Positions 22,699 through 32,529 of a stretch of DNA of 64,000 bases are shown piece by piece. The notes beneath the pieces were generated by a model, which made no database searches, was not told where the DNA came from, and saw only the letters and a program-made list of their open reading frames with translations. Numbering within the stretch: the stretch's first letter is position 1; each line of letters begins with the position of its first letter. The position numbers were made by a program, and so were the translations under genes. Source of the DNA: Oceanidesulfovibrio marinus (GTDB lineage: Bacteria > Desulfobacterota > Desulfovibrionia > Desulfovibrionales > Desulfovibrionaceae); contig NZ_CP039543.1 of NCBI RefSeq assembly GCF_013085545.1, positions 682,001 through 746,000 of the forward strand, read 5' to 3'.

Positions 22699-22740
22699 AA
22701 AGGGTTTCGGCATACGATGCTGGAACCCTTTCTTTATTTA
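22699..22740 (+). terminator. terminator of the 18.6-22.7 kb operon
   Basis: AAAGGGTT at 22699-22706 pairs with AACCCTTT at 22724-22731, followed by a T-rich stretch. Confidence 0.75.
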
Positions 22741-22922: not shown

Positions 22923-22938
22923 TGTGCATTTGTGCACA
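22923..22938. promoter_or_regulatory. upstream activator site 1 of the glycyl radical operon
   Basis: TGTGCA-TTTG-TGCACA is a 16-base palindrome with exact half-sites. It is the first of three such sites upstream of the sigma-54 promoter. Confidence 0.75.
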
Positions 22939-22947
22939 AACTATTTT

Positions 22948-22963
22948 TGTGCAGATTTGCACA
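22948..22963. promoter_or_regulatory. upstream activator site 2
   Basis: TGTGCA-GATT-TGCACA repeats the same half-sites 25 bases after site 1. Confidence 0.75.
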
Positions 22964-23006
22964 AATATTCAGATTTCGTTTTATTCTAATGCAATACATA
23001 CATTAC

Positions 23007-23022
23007 TGTGCAGATCTGCACA
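23007..23022. promoter_or_regulatory. upstream activator site 3
   Basis: TGTGCA-GATC-TGCACA is a perfect palindrome 59 bases after site 2 and about 90 bases before the -24 element. That distance suits an enhancer-binding protein. Confidence 0.75.
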
Positions 23023-23097
23023 AAACTACCGGCGGAGGAGGAAAAGGTCTTGATCCATATTTCACAAAAAGACTCGCTATTTTAGCCTGTTAATAGG

Positions 23098-23113
23098 CTG
23101 GCATGGTTGATGC
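23098..23113 (+). promoter_or_regulatory. sigma-54 promoter of the glycyl radical enzyme operon
   Basis: TGGCAT-GGTTG-ATGCT carries the -24 GG at 23099-23100 and the -12 GC at 23111-23112, one base away from the TTGC consensus. The expected transcript start near 23124 lies before the ribosome site at 23169-23173 and supports the ATG at 23181 as the true start. Confidence 0.72.
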
Positions 23114-23180
23114 TTACTCAGGGGCATTGTTGCAACTCAGAACTCAACGTCATTATTCAATAAATTCTAGGAGTAGAATT

Positions 23181-25661
23181 ATGATAGCTGCTGCAGAGTG
23201 TTGCCTGTCCCCCCAAGAAGAGCGCATCGCCACCCAAAAGGTCGATCGCCAGGGACGCGAGCGTGTGTACCAGATTCTGGAGACGAACCAGTTCACCGTG
23301 CCTGTCGTGGATATCGAGCGGGCACTGTACTTCACGCAGTCAATGAAGGAGACCGAAGGCGAGCTGCTGACCCTCCGCTGGGCCAAGGCGCTGAAGAACG
23401 TCGCCGAGAAGATCACCGTCTACATCACGCCGAATCAGCTCCTCGCCGGCCGCGCCGGGCAGCTCGGCCGCTACGGCATCCTCTACCCGGAGATCGACGG
23501 CGATTTCTACATCGAGGTCATGAAGGACCTGCCGAACCGCGCCAAGAGCCCATTCAGGATTTCGCCCGAAAACATGAAGACCCTGGTGGAAGAGATCGCC
23601 CCGTACTGGGAAGGCAAGACCTACCACGAGCATCTCAACAACGTGCTCCCGGAAGAGCTGCGCACCGTGACCTACGACGACGAGCGCGGCCTCAAGTCCA
23701 AGTTCGTGGTCAGCGAAACCTCGTCCTACCGTTCCGCCCTGCAGTGGGTGCCGGATTACGAAAAGGCCATCACGCGCGGCTTCATCGACCTGCAGAACGA
23801 GGCCAAAGCCAAGCTCGCCGCTCTGGAGAAGGAGAACGACTCCGTCAGCATCTGGGACAAGAAGCCTTTCCTGGAAGCCATGATCATCGTTTGCGACGCG
23901 ATCATGATCTGGGCCCGGCGCCATGCTGATCTGGCCAGGGAGCTGGCCGCCAGCGAGACCGATCCCACCCGCAAGATGGAGCTCGAACGCATCGCCGAGA
24001 CCTGCGAGCGCGTGCCCGCCTATCCGGCCCGCAACTTCCGCGAAGCCATGCAGTGCCAGTGGTTCGTGCAGATGTTCTCCCGCTTGGAGCAGAAGGCCAG
24101 CGCCATCATCTCCAACGGCCGCATGGACCAGTACCTCTATCCCTTCTACGCCAAGGATATCGAGGACGGCACGCTGACCCGCGATGAAGCCCGCGAGCTG
24201 CTGGAGTGCATGTGGGTGGACATGGCCCAGTTCATCGACCTCTACATCAACCCCACCGGCAACGAGTTCCAGGAAGGCTACGCCCACTGGGAGGCCGTGA
24301 CCATCGGCGGCCAGACCCCGGACGGCGAGGACGCCACCAACGATCTGACCTACTTGTTCCTGGAGTCCAAGCGCGACTTCCCGCTCAACTACCCGGACCT
24401 GGCCACGCGCATCCACAGCCGTTCGCCGGAGCGCTATCTGTACGAGGTGGCCCTGACCGTCAAGGACGGCTCGGGCTTCCCCAAGCTCATCAACGATGAG
24501 GAAGTCGTGCCGCTGTACGCCATCAAGGGCGCGCCCATGGACGAGGCTCTGGACTACGCCGTGTCCGGCTGCACCGAGGCGCGCATGCCCAACCGCGACA
24601 CCTACACCTCGGGCTGCGTCTACATCAACTTCGCCTCGGCTCTGGAAATGCTCATGCGCAACGGTCGGATGCGCTGCTACAACGATGAGCTCATCGGCGT
24701 CGAGACCGGCGACTTCACCAAGTTCGAGACCTGGGAGGAGTTCTACGAGGCGTACAAGACGCAGCATCTGAACCTGCTGCAAAAGGCATTTCAGCAGCAG
24801 TATGTGGTGGATTGCCTGCGGCCGCAGCACTTTGCCGCGCCGCTTTCCTCGCTCCTGCACAGCCTGTGCATGGAGAACCTCCAGGACCTGCACGAGCCCA
24901 AGATCGAGGGCGGCGTGGACTACTCCTACTTCGAGTTCCTGGGCTACGGCACGATCGTGGACTCGCTGGCCGCCATCAAGAAGCTCGTTTTCGAGGACAA
25001 GAAGCTGACCCTGAAGCAGGTGCTGGACGCTGTGGACGCAGACTTCGTGGGCCATGAGCCCGTGCGCGAGATGCTGCGCAATGCGCCGTGCTACGGCAAC
25101 AACGACCCCTACGCCGACTCCATCGCCAAGGACATCGACCGCTTCACCCAGGTGGCAGCCAAGAAGAGCTCCGAGGAGCGCGGCGTACACGTCGACGTGC
25201 GCTACGTGCCCATCACGTCCCACGTGCCCTTCGGCAAGGTGGTTTCGGCCACGCCCAATGGTCGCAAGGCCTGGACCGCGCTGTCCGACGGCTCTTCCGC
25301 CTCCCACGGCGCGGACAAAAACGGTCCCACGGCAGTGCTTCTGTCCAACTACCACACGAAAAACTACGGCATGATCAACCGCGCCTCGCGCCTGCTCAAC
25401 ATCAAGCTGTCGCCCAAGTGCGTGGCAGGCGAGGAGGGCACGCAGAAGATCATCGACCTCATCCGGACCTGGTGCGACCTCAAGCTGTGGCACCTGCAGT
25501 TCAACATCGTCAACAAGCAGACGTTGCTTGCCGCCCAGGAAGACCCGGATAGCTATCGTAGTCTGCTCGTGCGCATCGCCGGGTACAGTGCCTACTTCTG
25601 TGACCTGTCCCGCGATTTGCAAAATGACATCATCGAGCGGACCGAACACGCCGATATGTAA
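23181..25661 (+). CDS. glycyl radical C-S lyase, isethionate/DHPS sulfite-lyase type
   Basis: This 826-residue glycyl radical enzyme has the thiyl motif GCTEAR (Cys464, Glu466) and the C-terminal radical loop RIAGYSAYF (Gly801). Arg184, Gln188, Trp370 and Arg674 fall at a near-constant offset of four or five from the residues I recall for isethionate sulfite-lyase IslA (Arg189, Gln193, Trp374, Arg678), where they hold the sulfonate. Position 678, matching Phe682 of IslA as I recall it, is Ile. The substrate could be isethionate, dihydroxypropanesulfonate or a relative. The released sulfite would feed respiration in the cytoplasm. The start at 23181 has AGGAG seven bases upstream. The activase follows in the same operon. 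Confidence 0.82.
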
Positions 25662-25716: not shown

Positions 25717-25805
25717 CTTGGGGTTCCTTTCCCTTCATGTGCTGGCGTTGCGGCCATCGGGGAAAAAGAAGACGAAATAATGCGCGCGATGCAAAGGATC
25801 ATGTC

Positions 25806-26699
25806 ATGTTAGACAAAGACGTTACCGGTATTGTGTTCAATGTGCAGAAGTTCAGCGTGCACGACGGCCACGGCATCCGCACTCTGATCTTTCTGAAAGG
25901 GTGCCCGCTGCGCTGCCGTTGGTGCTGCAACCCCGAGTCGCAGTTGCTCGACCCGGAGCGCGCCTTCAACCCGACCCGATGCCTCACAGCCTCGGTGTGC
26001 GGCCGCTGCGTGGACGTCTGTCCGACCAAAGCCATCACGGTTGTCGGCGATTTGCTCATCATCGACCGCGAGCGGTGTACGGACTGCTTCGCCTGCGTGG
26101 ATGCCTGTCCTTCCGGCGCGCAGACGATGTATGGCGAACGGCAGACCGTGGACCAGGTGCTGCGCCGTGTGGAGGAGGACAGTCTCTTCTACGCCAGATC
26201 CGGTGGCGGGCTGACGCTCAGCGGTGGCGAGGCCATGGCACAGCCCCAGTTTGTGACCGCGCTTCTGCGCGAGGCGAGAAAGCGGCACATCAATACAGCC
26301 ATGGAGACGTGCGGCCACTACTCCTGGGATGTCCTGCAGGAAGCCTGCGGCCTGCTCGACAACCTCATCTACGACATCAAGTGCATGGACAGCGTCAGGC
26401 ACAAGGAGTTCACCGGGGTCGGCAACGATCTGATTCTCAGTAATTTCAACAAGGTTTGCGAGACATTCCCCACGCTGCCAATCAAGGCTCGCACACCTGT
26501 TATTCCAGGGTTCAACGACTCGGCGGAAGACATCGTTGCTATCCGCAGGTTCATTGCCCAGCGTCCGAACGTCACTTACGAGCTGCTGCCTTTCCACCGC
26601 ATGGGACAGCCGAAGTACGAGTACCTCGGCCGAAGCTACTCCTATGCGGACGCTTCCCTCCAGGAGGCCTCATTCAAGCAGCTGCAAACGCTCGTGTGA
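25806..26699 (+). CDS. glycyl radical enzyme activase (radical SAM)
   Basis: This 297-residue activase has the radical SAM motif CPLRCRWC (Cys33, Cys37, Cys40). A two-cluster ferredoxin insert follows, with Cys59, 65, 68 and 72 and Cys91, 94, 97 and 101. This layout is standard for activases of the IslB, CutD and HpsH group. It uses SAM to form the glycyl radical on the upstream lyase. The ATG at 25806 follows AAGGA. It ends before a long hairpin and a convergent regulator gene. Confidence 0.92.
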   Translation: MLDKDVTGIVFNVQKFSVHDGHGIRTLIFLKGCPLRCRWCCNPESQLLDPERAFNPTRCLTASVCGRCVDVCPTKAITVVGDLLIIDRERCTDCFACVDACPSGAQTMYGERQTVDQVLRRVEEDSLFYARSGGGLTLSGGEAMAQPQFVTALLREARKRHINTAMETCGHYSWDVLQEACGLLDNLIYDIKCMDSVRHKEFTGVGNDLILSNFNKVCETFPTLPIKARTPVIPGFNDSAEDIVAIRRFIAQRPNVTYELLPFHRMGQPKYEYLGRSYSYADASLQEASFKQLQTLV

Positions 26700-26733: not shown

Positions 26734-26772
26734 GCCAGGACAGCGGCCTACTGGATCTGCCGCTGTCCTGGC
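26734..26772. terminator. strong hairpin after the activase
   Basis: GCCAGGACAGCGGC at 26734-26747 pairs over 14 bases with GCCGCTGTCCTGGC at 26759-26772. No T-run follows, so it may act as a terminator, a 3' stabiliser or both between convergent genes. Confidence 0.6.
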
Positions 26773-26842: not shown

Positions 26843-28279
26843 TCACGAGTCCTTAGTGGACTTCCGCTTCCGCCGCTTGTTTACAGGCATGGGCATGTTG
26901 AGATCTTTGGCCATGGCCCGGACCTTGCGGAACACAGTGGTGCGGTCGAGCTGGAAATGCTCGGCCATCTCCTGCAGCGAGCCGTACTGCTTCAGCCCCG
27001 CCAGAAGTACCTGATTCTCCAGCTCCCGCATGATGTCCTTGTAGGACCTGTCGGCTATGTCCAGGTCAGGTGCTTCGGCGTCCGCGATGTTGATGGGCGG
27101 CGCGCTGCTGCGCTTGATAGGCAGGTCGCCTTCATCAATGCGATCATTGGCGCTGGTGATGACGAGACCGTGGATGAGGTTTTCCATCTCGCGCACATTG
27201 CCGGGCCAGCGGTACTCGGTAAGCGCCTGGCCGGCCGCCGGGGTGAGCTCGCAGGAGCGTTTGTACCGGGCGCCATAGAACTCCAGAAAGCATTGGGCCA
27301 GGGGCAGAATGTCCCCTTTGCGCTTGCGCAGGGGCGGGATGCGGATGACCGCCACCTTGAGCCGGTAGTACAGATCGCTGCGGAACCGGCCGGCGGCGAC
27401 TTCCTCTTCCAGATCCTTGTTGGTGGCAGCGATGACGCGCACGTCGATCTTGGTCGGCGTGGTGGAGCCCACGCGCTTGATTTCCCAGTCCTGGAGCAGG
27501 CGCAGCAGCCGGGATTGCATGGCAAGGGGCAGCTCGCCGATTTCGTCGAGGAACAGCGTCCCCGAGGAGGCGGCCTCGATCAAACCAACCTTGCCCTGCT
27601 TGATGCCGCCGGAAAAAGTACCCGGCGCGTAGCCGAACAGCTCCGTCTCCACGAGATTTTCCGGAATACTGCCGCAGTCGGCCTTGATGAACGGCTTGTC
27701 GGCCCGGGGGCTGGAGGCGTGCAGACGCCTGGCGAACACGTCTTTGCCCACGCCGGTCTCGCCCAGAAGCAGCACCGTGGCGTCTGTTTCGGCGAGCATG
27801 CCGATCTGGCCGATTGCCCGGCGCATGGCTTCGCTGTGAACGACCAGCGGGCAGATGCGTTGCTCGCCCGCGTCTATGCTTTGCAGCTTCTTGAACGTTT
27901 CCAGGAGCTCCCGCTGGGCGATGACCTGCTCCTTGAGCTCCTCCAGGGTGGTGATGTCGTAGATAAAGGTCACGACACAGGCGACCTCGCCCTGGTCGTC
28001 GAAAATCGGGTGCCCGTCCAGAAGGAGCTTCTTGCCGTTCATGAGGTTCTGGATGCGGGAGGTCTCCACCTTGCCCTTGACGATGATGGGGTTGAGCACG
28101 ATGTCAAAGTGCCCGCCATCCACGAGCTCCTGGAGGTTCTTGCCGACGATGTCCTTTTTTTCAATCCCGGTCAGCCTGGAATACTTGGCGTTGATATGCA
28201 GGACGACGCCCTGGCTGTCGGTGATGCAGACAGCCTCTTTGAAGGCGTCGAGGAATGGTTCGAAATACTTGGCTTCCAT
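26843..28279 (-). CDS. PAS-domain sigma-54 enhancer-binding regulator
   Basis: This regulator of about 478 residues has an N-terminal PAS domain (FEPFLDAFKEAVCITDSQG). The AAA+ domain has Walker A GETGVGKD, Walker B TLFLDEIGELPL and WPGNVREMEN. A Fis-type helix-turn-helix follows near the C-terminus (LQEMAEHFQLDRTTVFRKVRAM). The sigma-54 contact loop reads GTFSGG instead of GAFTGA, an unusual change. The start at 28279 is chosen for AAGGG upstream; longer starts lack domain content. It is convergent with the glycyl radical operon and is the obvious candidate to bind the three palindromes there. The PAS domain may sense the sulfonate. Confidence 0.87.
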   Translation of the reverse strand: MEAKYFEPFLDAFKEAVCITDSQGVVLHINAKYSRLTGIEKKDIVGKNLQELVDGGHFDIVLNPIIVKGKVETSRIQNLMNGKKLLLDGHPIFDDQGEVACVVTFIYDITTLEELKEQVIAQRELLETFKKLQSIDAGEQRICPLVVHSEAMRRAIGQIGMLAETDATVLLLGETGVGKDVFARRLHASSPRADKPFIKADCGSIPENLVETELFGYAPGTFSGGIKQGKVGLIEAASSGTLFLDEIGELPLAMQSRLLRLLQDWEIKRVGSTTPTKIDVRVIAATNKDLEEEVAAGRFRSDLYYRLKVAVIRIPPLRKRKGDILPLAQCFLEFYGARYKRSCELTPAAGQALTEYRWPGNVREMENLIHGLVITSANDRIDEGDLPIKRSSAPPINIADAEAPDLDIADRSYKDIMRELENQVLLAGLKQYGSLQEMAEHFQLDRTTVFRKVRAMAKDLNMPMPVNKRRKRKSTKDS

Positions 28280-28666: not shown

Positions 28667-30349
28667 TCACCGCAGCACGGGGCTGACACGGCTGATGAGA
28701 ATGCTCAGGCAGACGGTCAGCGCGATGAGCACCGTGCCGTAGGCCATGGCCAGGCCGATATCGTACTCGAAGATGGCGTTGACCATGGCTATGGAGATGG
28801 GCTTGTTGGACGCCGTGTAGAGAAAGGCCGAAACCGTGTACTCGCCTATGCTGCGCACAAAGACATACAGGAATCCGGCGAGGAGCCCCGGATAAAGGAT
28901 GGGGAGGGTGACCTTGCAGAATGTCCGGCACCCTGATGCACCGAGGCTCTTGGACGCCTCCAGCAGGGTTGAGTTCAGCCCCTGGAATGAAATGTGTGTG
29001 ATCCTGACCACGATGGGCAGGGATTTGATGAAGTAGCCCAGGGGCAGCAGTACGTACGCGCCCACCAGGACCATGTTGAAGGAAAACACGCTGGGCGTGC
29101 TGTTGGCCGTGATGATGTTGATGGCGATTGCGCTCGCCGGCATGGCCCAGGGCAGTACGACCAGAAAATCGACCAGCCCCCTCAATCTGTTCCGGGTCTT
29201 TTCGATGATCCAGGACGCTGGCACGGCAACGACCAGACAGAACAACGCGGCCATGATCGACATGTTGATGCTGTTCATGAAGGGGGCGAACTTGCGCGCC
29301 TTGGAGAAGATCGCCGCAAAGTTCTCCAGGGTGAATCTCTGGGGATAGATGGAGACCATCCACGAGCCCGAATCCACGAATGACAGGACTATGATGGTGA
29401 CAAAGGGCAGCAGGATCAGCAGGACCAGGACCAGCTTGATCCCCGAAGCGCACCAGCGGAGCCGGCGGGTTCGTATCCGGATGGGTTGAAATGGCACGCC
29501 CTTGACCGAACTGATGAACAGCTTTTTCTTCTCGTACCAACGCAACACCATGAAAAAGCCCATGGAAATGGTCGTCAGGACCACCACCTGCACGGCGGCG
29601 GTCTCCATGTAGTTGTTGGCTTTGGACAGCAATATCTGGGTGGTCAGAACCTTGTACCCGCCGCCGATGATGCTGGGCGCGGCAAAGGAGCCGATGCCGG
29701 TCATGAACGTCACAGCCGCGGCGGTGATGATCGCCGGCGTGGTGAACGGCAGGATGACCGAGCGGAACACCTTTGCGCGCGACGCCCCCAGAACCCTGGC
29801 GCTCTCTATGACCGAAGCATCGATCTGTTTGATTGCCAGTGAAACCGTGAGATAAAAATAGACGTACTGGGTATACACGTGCACGAACAGGATGCCTGGT
29901 AGACCGGAGAAGCTGTACGGCGTTTTCTCCAGCCCGAGTAGCGACTCCAGGGTCTTGGTTACAAGGCCGCTCTCGCCGTAGAGCTGTACAAAAGCAAAGA
30001 CGATGATGATTCCGGGCATCATCACCGGCAGGAGCAGGAGCTTGTCCAGCAATTCACGGTGGGGACATTCGAAGTAGTGTACCAGAAACGCCAGACCAAT
30101 GCCCACCGAGGCGCACAGCACCACGGTCAGCACGCCGAGCAGGAGGGTGTTCTGCAGAACCTGCAGGCTGGAGGATGAGGTGAAGAACTCGACGTAGCGG
30201 CCGATTCCGGTCCCGTGGTCCACAGACAGGCTCTTCCACAACGTGGTGAGCGCCGGATACAGAATGTATCCCACCAGCACCCAGAGCAGCGCCAGGAAGC
30301 CGAAGCCCGGGACAATCCGGCTGGTCAGTTGCTTCTTACCTGCGGCCAC
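28667..30349 (-). CDS. ABC transporter permease, fused FbpB-type double domain
   Basis: This 560-residue protein contains two tandem binding-protein-dependent permease domains, each with six membrane segments and an EAA loop (IESARVLGASRAKVFRSVILP and LLEASKSLGASGCRTFCKVTLP). This fused form is typical of Fe(III), 2-aminoethylphosphonate and related small-anion importers. It starts 12 bases after the ATPase gene on the same strand, closing a phosphatase - binding protein - ATPase - permease operon. The substrate is unknown. Confidence 0.88.
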   Translation of the reverse strand: MAAGKKQLTSRIVPGFGFLALLWVLVGYILYPALTTLWKSLSVDHGTGIGRYVEFFTSSSSLQVLQNTLLLGVLTVVLCASVGIGLAFLVHYFECPHRELLDKLLLLPVMMPGIIIVFAFVQLYGESGLVTKTLESLLGLEKTPYSFSGLPGILFVHVYTQYVYFYLTVSLAIKQIDASVIESARVLGASRAKVFRSVILPFTTPAIITAAAVTFMTGIGSFAAPSIIGGGYKVLTTQILLSKANNYMETAAVQVVVLTTISMGFFMVLRWYEKKKLFISSVKGVPFQPIRIRTRRLRWCASGIKLVLVLLILLPFVTIIVLSFVDSGSWMVSIYPQRFTLENFAAIFSKARKFAPFMNSINMSIMAALFCLVVAVPASWIIEKTRNRLRGLVDFLVVLPWAMPASAIAINIITANSTPSVFSFNMVLVGAYVLLPLGYFIKSLPIVVRITHISFQGLNSTLLEASKSLGASGCRTFCKVTLPILYPGLLAGFLYVFVRSIGEYTVSAFLYTASNKPISIAMVNAIFEYDIGLAMAYGTVLIALTVCLSILISRVSPVLR

Positions 30350-30361
30350 GGCGTCTCCCCA

Positions 30362-31408
30362 TCAGTCCTCAAGCAGTCTGAGGGCTTTTTCGGGCAGGGT
30401 CATCCAGACAGGTTCTCCGGGCTGCGGTTCCGACTTACGGGCGGCGGTATTCAGTTGCGCCACACGGAAGACAAACTCACCCACATGCACGATCAGGTCG
30501 ATCCAGACCCCGTTCAGCTGGCGCCCGGCCAGCTGTCCCTGCAAGGTGTTGGGCGCATCCACGGGAGAGCTGGATAGCTCTATGTCCTGAGGTCTGATGG
30601 AAAGATGGCCTTGTCCACGCGCCGCACCTGGCATCCGTAGCTCGATTCCATGGGCCAGACGGGCTCTGTCGTTGTCCGTTGTTACCCGGAACAGGTTGGT
30701 GTCGCCTACGAACCCGGCCACGAAGACATTCCGCGGCGCGTTGTAGATTTCCAGGGGTGTCCCGATCTGCTCCACGCGGCCCTTGTTGAACACGGCCACA
30801 CGGTCCGAAAGGGTCAGGGCTTCGGTCTGATCGTGGGTCACGAAGATGGTGGTTATTCCCAGCCGCTTCTGCAGCGATTTTATCTCGCCTCGCATGGCGT
30901 CGCGAAGGCGGGCGTCGAGATTGGAAAGCGGTTCGTCAAGTAGCAGAACGCTGGGCTCCACAGCCAGGGATCTGGCCAGAGCCACGCGCTGCTGCTCGCC
31001 TCCGGAAAGCTCCGTCACCTTGCGGCCGCCGAATCCGGCCAGCCCGACCATGTCCATGTAGAGCGCAACGGTTTCCTTCCGCTCCCGGGGCGTCTTGTTT
31101 TGAATGGCCACCCCGTACTCTATGTTCTGGTACACGGTCAGAAAGGGGAACAGGGAGTAGTTCTGGAACACCATGCCCACCTTGCGCTTTTCCGGCGCCA
31201 GATGGGTGATGTCTTTGCCATCCAGAAAAACCGCGCCTGATTGCGGAGTGATGAACCCCGCGATCAGGCGCAGCAGAGTGGTTTTTCCACAACCGGAAGG
31301 GCCGAGAAAGGTGAAGAACTCTCCTTTGCGTATGCCCAGATGGATGTCTTTGCAGGCCCAGACTCCATCGTAGGAGACCCCTACACCTTCGAGGACAACG
31401 CCCTCCAT
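30362..31408 (-). CDS. ABC transporter ATPase, FbpC/PotA type
   Basis: This 348-residue ATPase has Walker A GPSGCGKTT, Q loop VFQNYSLFP, signature LSGGEQQRVALARSL, Walker B VLLLDEPLSNLD and switch VTHDQTEAL. A C-terminal TOBE/OB domain follows (LSIRPQDIEL). ATG 31408 is chosen because TAGGAG lies just upstream, overlapping the stop codon region of the binding-protein gene; an ATG at 31429 would add seven residues without a better ribosome site. It powers import through the adjacent fused permease. Confidence 0.9.
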   Translation of the reverse strand: MEGVVLEGVGVSYDGVWACKDIHLGIRKGEFFTFLGPSGCGKTTLLRLIAGFITPQSGAVFLDGKDITHLAPEKRKVGMVFQNYSLFPFLTVYQNIEYGVAIQNKTPRERKETVALYMDMVGLAGFGGRKVTELSGGEQQRVALARSLAVEPSVLLLDEPLSNLDARLRDAMRGEIKSLQKRLGITTIFVTHDQTEALTLSDRVAVFNKGRVEQIGTPLEIYNAPRNVFVAGFVGDTNLFRVTTDNDRARLAHGIELRMPGAARGQGHLSIRPQDIELSSSPVDAPNTLQGQLAGRQLNGVWIDLIVHVGEFVFRVAQLNTAARKSEPQPGEPVWMTLPEKALRLLED

Positions 31409-31418
31409 TCGGTCGCTC

Positions 31419-32459
31419 CTACTTCGCATCCTTGCCCGAGTCTTTTATTTCCGAATCCCAGTGCTGCATCCACTCGGATTGCTTGGAGGCCAGAGCGCCC
31501 CAGTCCACGTCCATGACGCGGAACTTGATCTCGCCCATCCATGCCGGGGAGCTGGCTATTGCATCGGGAAGGGTGGGCATGCGGTTGAACTGGTTCGCGA
31601 GCATGGACTGGACCTTGGCGCCGCCGGCAAATTCCACAAAGGCCTGCGCCGCGTTCGGGTGCTTCGCGCCCTTGATCACTGCGATGCCGTCGGTGATGAC
31701 CGGAGAACCGCTGGTTGCGTCGATGATCTCCAGCGGCATTTTGTTCTTGATCTTGTTGTCGATAATCGAGTTGAGCACGGCAAAGCTGATGGCAGCCTCC
31801 TTCCGGCCCACGGCCTGGAATTGGAGCGAACCGCTGCCGTAGTACCGCTTGGTATTGGCGTCCACCGCCTTCAGGAATTTCCATCCCTCTTTCAGCTCAC
31901 CTTTTTTCTCGAACTGCTGCAGCAGCGAGGAGTAGGTGGCGCGGGCCGAGGAGGACAGGGCGTTTCTGAAAACCATGGTGTCTTTGTACTTGGGGTCGGC
32001 CAGGTCCCACCAGTCCTTGGGCGCCTCGTCCTTGCTCATCATTTCGCTGTTGTAGAACATCAGCACCGGGGTCTGGATGGTGCCGTACCAGTAGCCGTCC
32101 TTGTCCTTGAAGATGGGCTGGATCTTGTCCGCCCAACTCGGCGTGCAGGGAGCGAAGAGATCTTCCGCCTTGAGCTCCTGATATACGGAGGAAGGCGCGC
32201 CGTACATGACATCGGACTGGGGGTTGGCCTTCTCGGCGCGAACCCTGTCGGCCAGCTCGCCTTTGAGGTTGATGAACTCGACCTTCACGCCGGTCTCCTT
32301 TTCGAAAGCATCCGCCACAACCTCCAGCATGGACTCGCCGTGGGTCGAGTAGACGACGACCTTCTCTTCCAGTGCGTCGGAGGCAAGAGCTACAGTGGGG
32401 ACAAGAATGGCCGCCAGCAGGGTGAAGACGGCCCATCTGATGCAGTTTCCAATGTTCAT
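31419..32459 (-). CDS. periplasmic substrate-binding protein, FbpA/phosphonate type
   Basis: This 346-residue exported protein has a signal peptide ending at VALASDALEE. The mature part starts VVVYSTHGESMLEVVADAFEKETG and continues with the type 2 periplasmic binding fold of the Fe(III)/AEP/polyamine group. A Tyr-Tyr pair occurs at KRYYGSGS, but I do not treat it as proof of iron binding. The ATG at 32459 has GGGAGGA upstream and gives a normal signal peptide; a longer start would not. It is the receptor for the importer encoded downstream. Confidence 0.87.
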   Translation of the reverse strand: MNIGNCIRWAVFTLLAAILVPTVALASDALEEKVVVYSTHGESMLEVVADAFEKETGVKVEFINLKGELADRVRAEKANPQSDVMYGAPSSVYQELKAEDLFAPCTPSWADKIQPIFKDKDGYWYGTIQTPVLMFYNSEMMSKDEAPKDWWDLADPKYKDTMVFRNALSSSARATYSSLLQQFEKKGELKEGWKFLKAVDANTKRYYGSGSLQFQAVGRKEAAISFAVLNSIIDNKIKNKMPLEIIDATSGSPVITDGIAVIKGAKHPNAAQAFVEFAGGAKVQSMLANQFNRMPTLPDAIASSPAWMGEIKFRVMDVDWGALASKQSEWMQHWDSEIKDSGKDAK

Positions 32460-32529
32460 GTGGTGTCCTCCCTTGGACTTTTCTGGGGAATCGCAAAAAC
32501 AGGTGCACTGAAAACCCGCGCGCAGACAG

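Follow-up and report, generated by a model that had tools for sequence, protein, structure and literature searches.

Predicted sigma-54 control region upstream of the hpsGH sulfonate lyase operon of Oceanidesulfovibrio marinus

Results

The window, the whole 64,000-nucleotide stretch of DNA analysed here from this sulfate-reducing bacterium, carries adjacent plus-strand genes for a glycyl radical enzyme and its activase. The first, hpsG (23181..25661), encodes a dihydroxypropanesulfonate (DHPS) sulfite-lyase that scores 1498 bits against NCBIfam NF048011 (cutoff 1000). In the PDB, its best match is 6lon (1604 bits); 5ymr (1239 bits) and the isethionate lyase IslA, 7kq3 (1180 bits), score lower, and we therefore assign the protein, which is above the family cutoff and nearer to HpsG than to IslA, to the HpsG family. 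The NCBIfam label for this family is dehydratase; in the Bilophila study, HpsG is described as a DHPS sulfite-lyase with sulfite and hydroxyacetone as its products (PMC8397734). The open reading frame is listed as starting at 23103, which falls inside the promoter described below, and the real start is the ATG at 23181. The second gene, hpsH (25803..26699), encodes a radical-SAM activase (NF048010, 483 bits, cutoff 430) and is presumably cotranscribed with hpsG. A second relative of the lyase at a comparable level was not found in the genome. The gene upstream of hpsG is flavin-reductase-like and ends in a terminator-like hairpin on the plus strand (22699..22731; stem of 15 pairs, then a T-rich tail), so the region between the two opens a new transcription unit.

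Beyond hpsH, the minus strand encodes an enhancer-binding protein (26843..28279) with a PAS domain (Pfam), an AAA+ sigma-54 activator domain (PF00158, 216 bits) and a helix-turn-helix (HTH). It has 478 residues from the ATG at 28279, which is about where its orthologues begin. The AAA+ motifs are intact (Walker A GETGVGKD, Walker B GTLFLDE, arginine finger FRSDLYYR), and the C-terminal HTH, SLQEMAEHFQLDRTTVFRKVRAM, which aligns with the orthologues, contains the helix DRTTVFRK. The sigma-54-contacting loop reads GTFSGG as against GAFTGA, with the phenylalanine and a small hydroxyl residue retained; other HpsG-linked activators have GTFSGG, GSFSGA or GTFSGA. Single-step variants of the loop, GAFSGA and GAFTGG, occur among the activators of D. 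vulgaris and are tolerated (PMC4641369). A literature search for PspF T86S found no paper. The preliminary description of this DNA had placed the activator gene at the end of the lyase operon, and this proved to be wrong: the gene is convergent with hpsH and lies past a perfect 14-bp inverted repeat (26734..26772, unstranded, z -4.8). As the repeat separates the two stop codons, the activator is a convergent neighbour of the operon rather than its final gene, and the repeat itself is probably a two-way transcription end.

A predicted sigma-54 promoter, TGGCATGGTTGATGCT, is located at 23099..23114 on the plus strand. It matches 10 of the 12 letters of the consensus used (TGGCAC-N5-TTGCW), and its GG (23100-23101) and GC (23112-23113) are separated by the ten bases of the GG-N10-GC sigma-54 signature. 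The promoter had been proposed to lie at the right distance from the dyads; its end had been set one base short. We predict that the transcript would start about 11-12 bases downstream, at approximately 23124-23125. On its own TGGCATGGTTGATGCT is weak, being one of 11 matches of such grade to the promoter consensus in 64 kb, and its weight comes from context and conservation.

Upstream of the promoter there are three exact copies of TGTGCA-N4-TGCACA, starting at 22923, 22948 and 23007, which are 25 and 59 bases apart from start to start, exactly as had been described. We denote these dyads predicted upstream activating sites 1 (TGTGCATTTGTGCACA, 22923..22938), 2 (TGTGCAGATTTGCACA, 22948..22963) and 3 (TGTGCAGATCTGCACA, 23007..23022), all unstranded. 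A position weight matrix (PWM) made without the window scores them at 20.0, 20.7 and 16.0, respectively (20-base context). Dyads with up to two mismatches arise a few times by chance in 64 kb, and the window has three such matches where shuffled sequence gives a mean of 3.2, which is what might be said for chance or inert relics as the origin of the palindromes and promoter. Against this, all three copies are exact and fall within 100 bp, they are unique in the genome, and the arrangement is strongly conserved across species in both the training and hold-out sets described below; we regard a chance origin as negligible. The uniqueness comes from the genome scan that the preliminary description had proposed, run here with the exact pattern rather than the PWM over 4.76 Mb, which found the three window copies and nothing else. 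Four one-mismatch dyads are found elsewhere in the genome, none in a convincing promoter context. Extension of the regulon to these places was rejected: two are within open reading frames, one is in an ATCGAT-rich intergenic repeat and one is just 3' of another activator gene.

Conservation was assessed in 79 fetched loci encoding relatives of the lyase, grouped by identity to the window protein as HpsG (>70%) or IslA (about 58-67%). A sigma-54 promoter is conserved approximately 65-210 bases before essentially all HpsG genes whose upstream region is in the set. TGCA-N4-TGCA is enriched relative to shuffled sequence, with 22 copies before 27 HpsG genes (0.8 expected) and 30 before 40 IslA genes (0.9 expected). 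When spacers of 0-13 were compared, N4 alone was enriched, every other spacer giving at most 5 occurrences. The PWM, which was grown iteratively from the HpsG regions with the window left out, finds sites in 25 of 26 HpsG and 29 of 40 IslA regions and, at equal threshold, in none of the coding controls. Since iteration of a matrix on its own regions inflates the count of 25 of 26, we made a hold-out of 24 new regions drawn from 61 order-level genomes. Sites are present in 22 of these (50 sites against 5.4 expected) and the promoter in 23. Strong PWM matches are about 50-fold denser upstream of the lyase than in the rest of the fetched loci. The dyads and promoter thus keep their places before the HpsG and IslA genes of many species, the hold-out included, which supports the earlier claim of a sigma-54 regulatory architecture for the lyase operon. 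The half-site given for it, TGTGCA, is exact in the window, but the core conserved across relatives is TGCA-N4-TGCA. About half of the sites in relatives have T instead of the outer G and still keep this core, and half-site positions 4 and 7 vary (G/T and C/T) with a TGYA core retained.

The geometry of the sites is also recurrent. HpsG regions have two dyads, the proximal one starting 84-98 and the distal one 143-162 bases before the promoter. In 13 of 25 loci the two dyads are 58-61 bases apart; several others, in which overlapping dyads leave the register ambiguous, have an apparent distance of 66-67. Sites 2 and 3 of the window are the distal and proximal halves of this conserved pair, 59 bases apart and 153 and 94 bases before the promoter (20-base frame). 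In IslA regions the proximal site is about 102 bases before the promoter and the pair is mostly 43-63 bases apart. Assuming a helical pitch of 10.5 bp per turn, the 59 bp of the window pair corresponds to about 5.6 turns and the 84 bp from site 1 to site 3 to 8.0 turns; the HpsG spacing of about 59 bp thus amounts to some five and a half turns of the helix, and IslA spacings are mostly near whole turns. Of the three enhancer sites originally proposed, those at 22948 and 23007 are conserved in relatives and that at 22923 is not generally so. The position of site 1 is not general among relatives, although a third site at varying places is common. We read the site at 22923 as an extra, a lineage addition outside the widely conserved pair, and suggest that sites 2 and 3 (22948/23007) probably make up the essential unit.

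The dyads and the activator are associated across genomes. At E <= 1e-115, the activator clade is found in all 17 order-level genomes that have the lyase and in none of the 44 that do not (61 genomes; Fisher p = 1.9e-15, a value inflated by genome kinship and by an E-value cut picked after the results were seen). A genome's count of activators also agrees closely with its count of lyases. In the tree, the HpsG-linked activators form one supported clade with the window protein inside it. Members of the clade are usually beside lyase genes, and at several loci that seemingly had no activator the gene was found just past the fetched flank. One activator, approximately 46 kb from a lyase, adjoins an amidohydrolase-MFS operon that is equipped with a sigma-54 promoter and three sites. 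In the same genome, the locus of the lyase has a second cluster of sites ahead of an operon for a dehydrogenase, an ABC transporter and an activator. Tree, neighbourhood and co-occurrence all agree in placing the window activator in the HpsG/IslA-linked clade, and from the association of motif and clade we infer that it would bind TGCA-N4-TGCA.

We considered whether the dyads might instead be bound by a regulator of the Crp/Fnr family or of repressor type, with another activator serving the sigma-54 promoter. The Crp site is TGTGA-N6-TCACA, and the outer TGTG/CACA letters of the window dyads do stand at Crp-site spacing in an AT-rich upstream region. This resemblance is not kept in relatives, where the frequent loss of the outer G leaves TGCA-N4-TGCA intact, unlike a Crp core. 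Furthermore, the sites are at a fixed distance from a sigma-54 promoter and co-occur with the activator clade, and the orphan activator likewise has sites adjoining it. A Crp-type operator was rejected in its own right, as the conserved GTGA/TCAC core is absent and positions 4 and 7 vary in relatives. We judge that regulation of this kind is improbable.

The genome encodes about 40 sigma-54 activators besides the window protein, and the architecture could be as we describe but with a paralogue acting on it, alone or in a shared role. The paralogue at G000:C1:2440522-2441871 (L155) is 41% identical to the window protein, and its HTH, KMDRSTIFRK (helix DRSTIFRK), could in principle bind the dyads. 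However, an identity of only 41% puts it at a distance, it falls outside the lyase-linked clades, and no matching dyads were found near its gene. The involvement of a paralogue therefore seems to us unlikely.

Beside the activator, at 28667-32468 on the minus strand, are genes for a 2-aminoethylphosphonate-like ABC transporter, which comprises a binding protein, an ATPase and a two-part permease. This transporter is a candidate DHPS importer. No such transporter was found near hpsG in relatives, one of which has an SsuABC-like transporter. Neither a matching site nor a sigma-54 promoter was detected for the window transporter. A PWM scan of the window gave no site scoring >=12 near this operon or in the promoter region of the activator itself; autoregulation and control of the transporter are therefore unsupported.

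Discussion

We conclude that the region upstream of hpsG is very probably the sigma-54 control region of hpsGH, worked by the convergent activator at the dyads. We propose that this PAS-AAA+-HTH protein ("HpsR", a relative of IslR) would bind as dimers to the dyads at 22948-22963 and 23007-23022, and to the extra dyad at 22923-22938. The signal sensed by the PAS domain would most simply be DHPS itself or something derived from it, and on sensing it the protein would assemble into an ATPase ring. With the DNA that separates the promoter from the sites looped, the activator would open sigma-54 RNA polymerase at 23099-23114, so that hpsG and hpsH would be transcribed from approximately 23124 and the lyase would free sulfite for respiration. 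The sites, the promoter, the genes, their conservation and their co-occurrence are observed; activator binding, looping, transcript start and inducer are deduced from them.

Regulation of this type is familiar for sigma-54, and the nearest known systems are IslR and DVU2827. In the IslR/islAB system of D. alaskensis G20 and Bilophila, as in the window, the genes for a glycyl radical enzyme that cleaves a sulfonate and for its activase have a regulator gene next to them, and knock-out of islR in D. alaskensis G20 abolishes growth on isethionate (PMC6386719). Our likeness to IslR is drawn through the IslA-linked activators compared here, to whose clade the islR protein presumably belongs. These are 42-49% identical to the window protein and share the helix DR[ST]T[IV]FRK, in which N replaces D in some of them; their operons, like hpsGH, have TGCA-N4-TGCA sites and a sigma-54 promoter. 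The systems differ in the enzyme (HpsG, acting on DHPS, rather than IslA), in the spacing of the sites (58-61 bp for HpsG, mostly 43-63 bp for IslA) and in the activator loop, which is GTFSGG in the window as against GAFSGA or GAFTGA.

In D. vulgaris Hildenborough, the one-component sigma-54 activator DVU2827 is encoded next to the DVU2824 operon ('pyruvate formate-lyase'). Sites and sigma-54 promoters have been predicted for its regulon, which also takes in an amidohydrolase gene and was assigned to pyruvate metabolism in 2015 (PMC4641369). The amidohydrolase-MFS operon with TGCA-N4-TGCA-type sites that we found in one relative is reminiscent of this regulon in its gene content. The shared gene layout, together with reports of islA-like clusters in D. 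vulgaris, leads us to infer that DVU2824 may be a sulfonate lyase, and the regulon described as pyruvate metabolism may have to be reassigned. The hpsGH of Bilophila wadsworthia is an enzyme pair identical in kind to that of the window, whose expression in that species is strong and specific when it grows with DHPS, and the available text of that study describes no promoter or regulator (PMC8397734). The Bilophila relative in our set (L064) has both the promoter and the sites; hpsGH of the window differs from that of B. wadsworthia in having an unrelated ABC transporter in its neighbourhood.

DHPS is a main product of the breakdown of the plant sugar sulfoquinovose, and the sulfite that HpsG releases from it is respired to hydrogen sulfide. 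The control arrangement of hpsGH recurs in dozens of related genomes, and a conserved switch, readable from sequence, for hpsGH and its isethionate counterpart would allow prediction of which sulfidogens regulate these pathways. In a wider generalisation, all the sulfonate-cleaving glycyl radical operons of sulfidogens would be under the command of a single activator family that uses a TGYA-N4-TRCA operator and two dyads in a fixed layout, the dyad spacing separating the DHPS and isethionate branches. We offer this tentatively, as a possibility that we hold to be somewhat less than even. If true, it would provide a sequence-readable regulon for H2S production from dietary sulfonates.

Some relatives depart from the common pattern. 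L128 and L130 have no good sites by PWM, and the HTH/recognition region of their activators has diverged. Both have a distal dyad, approximately 160-227 bases before hpsG, in which the N4 spacer is kept and the core is changed (TGTCTCAAAACTGAGACA in L128). The two cases are suggestive of co-variation between site core and activator HTH. A second set of three dyads, spaced at about 31 and 80 and accompanied by sigma-54 promoters, precedes an amidohydrolase-MFS operon and a dehydrogenase-ABC transporter-activator operon (L153:5415-5843 and L154:9467-9874).
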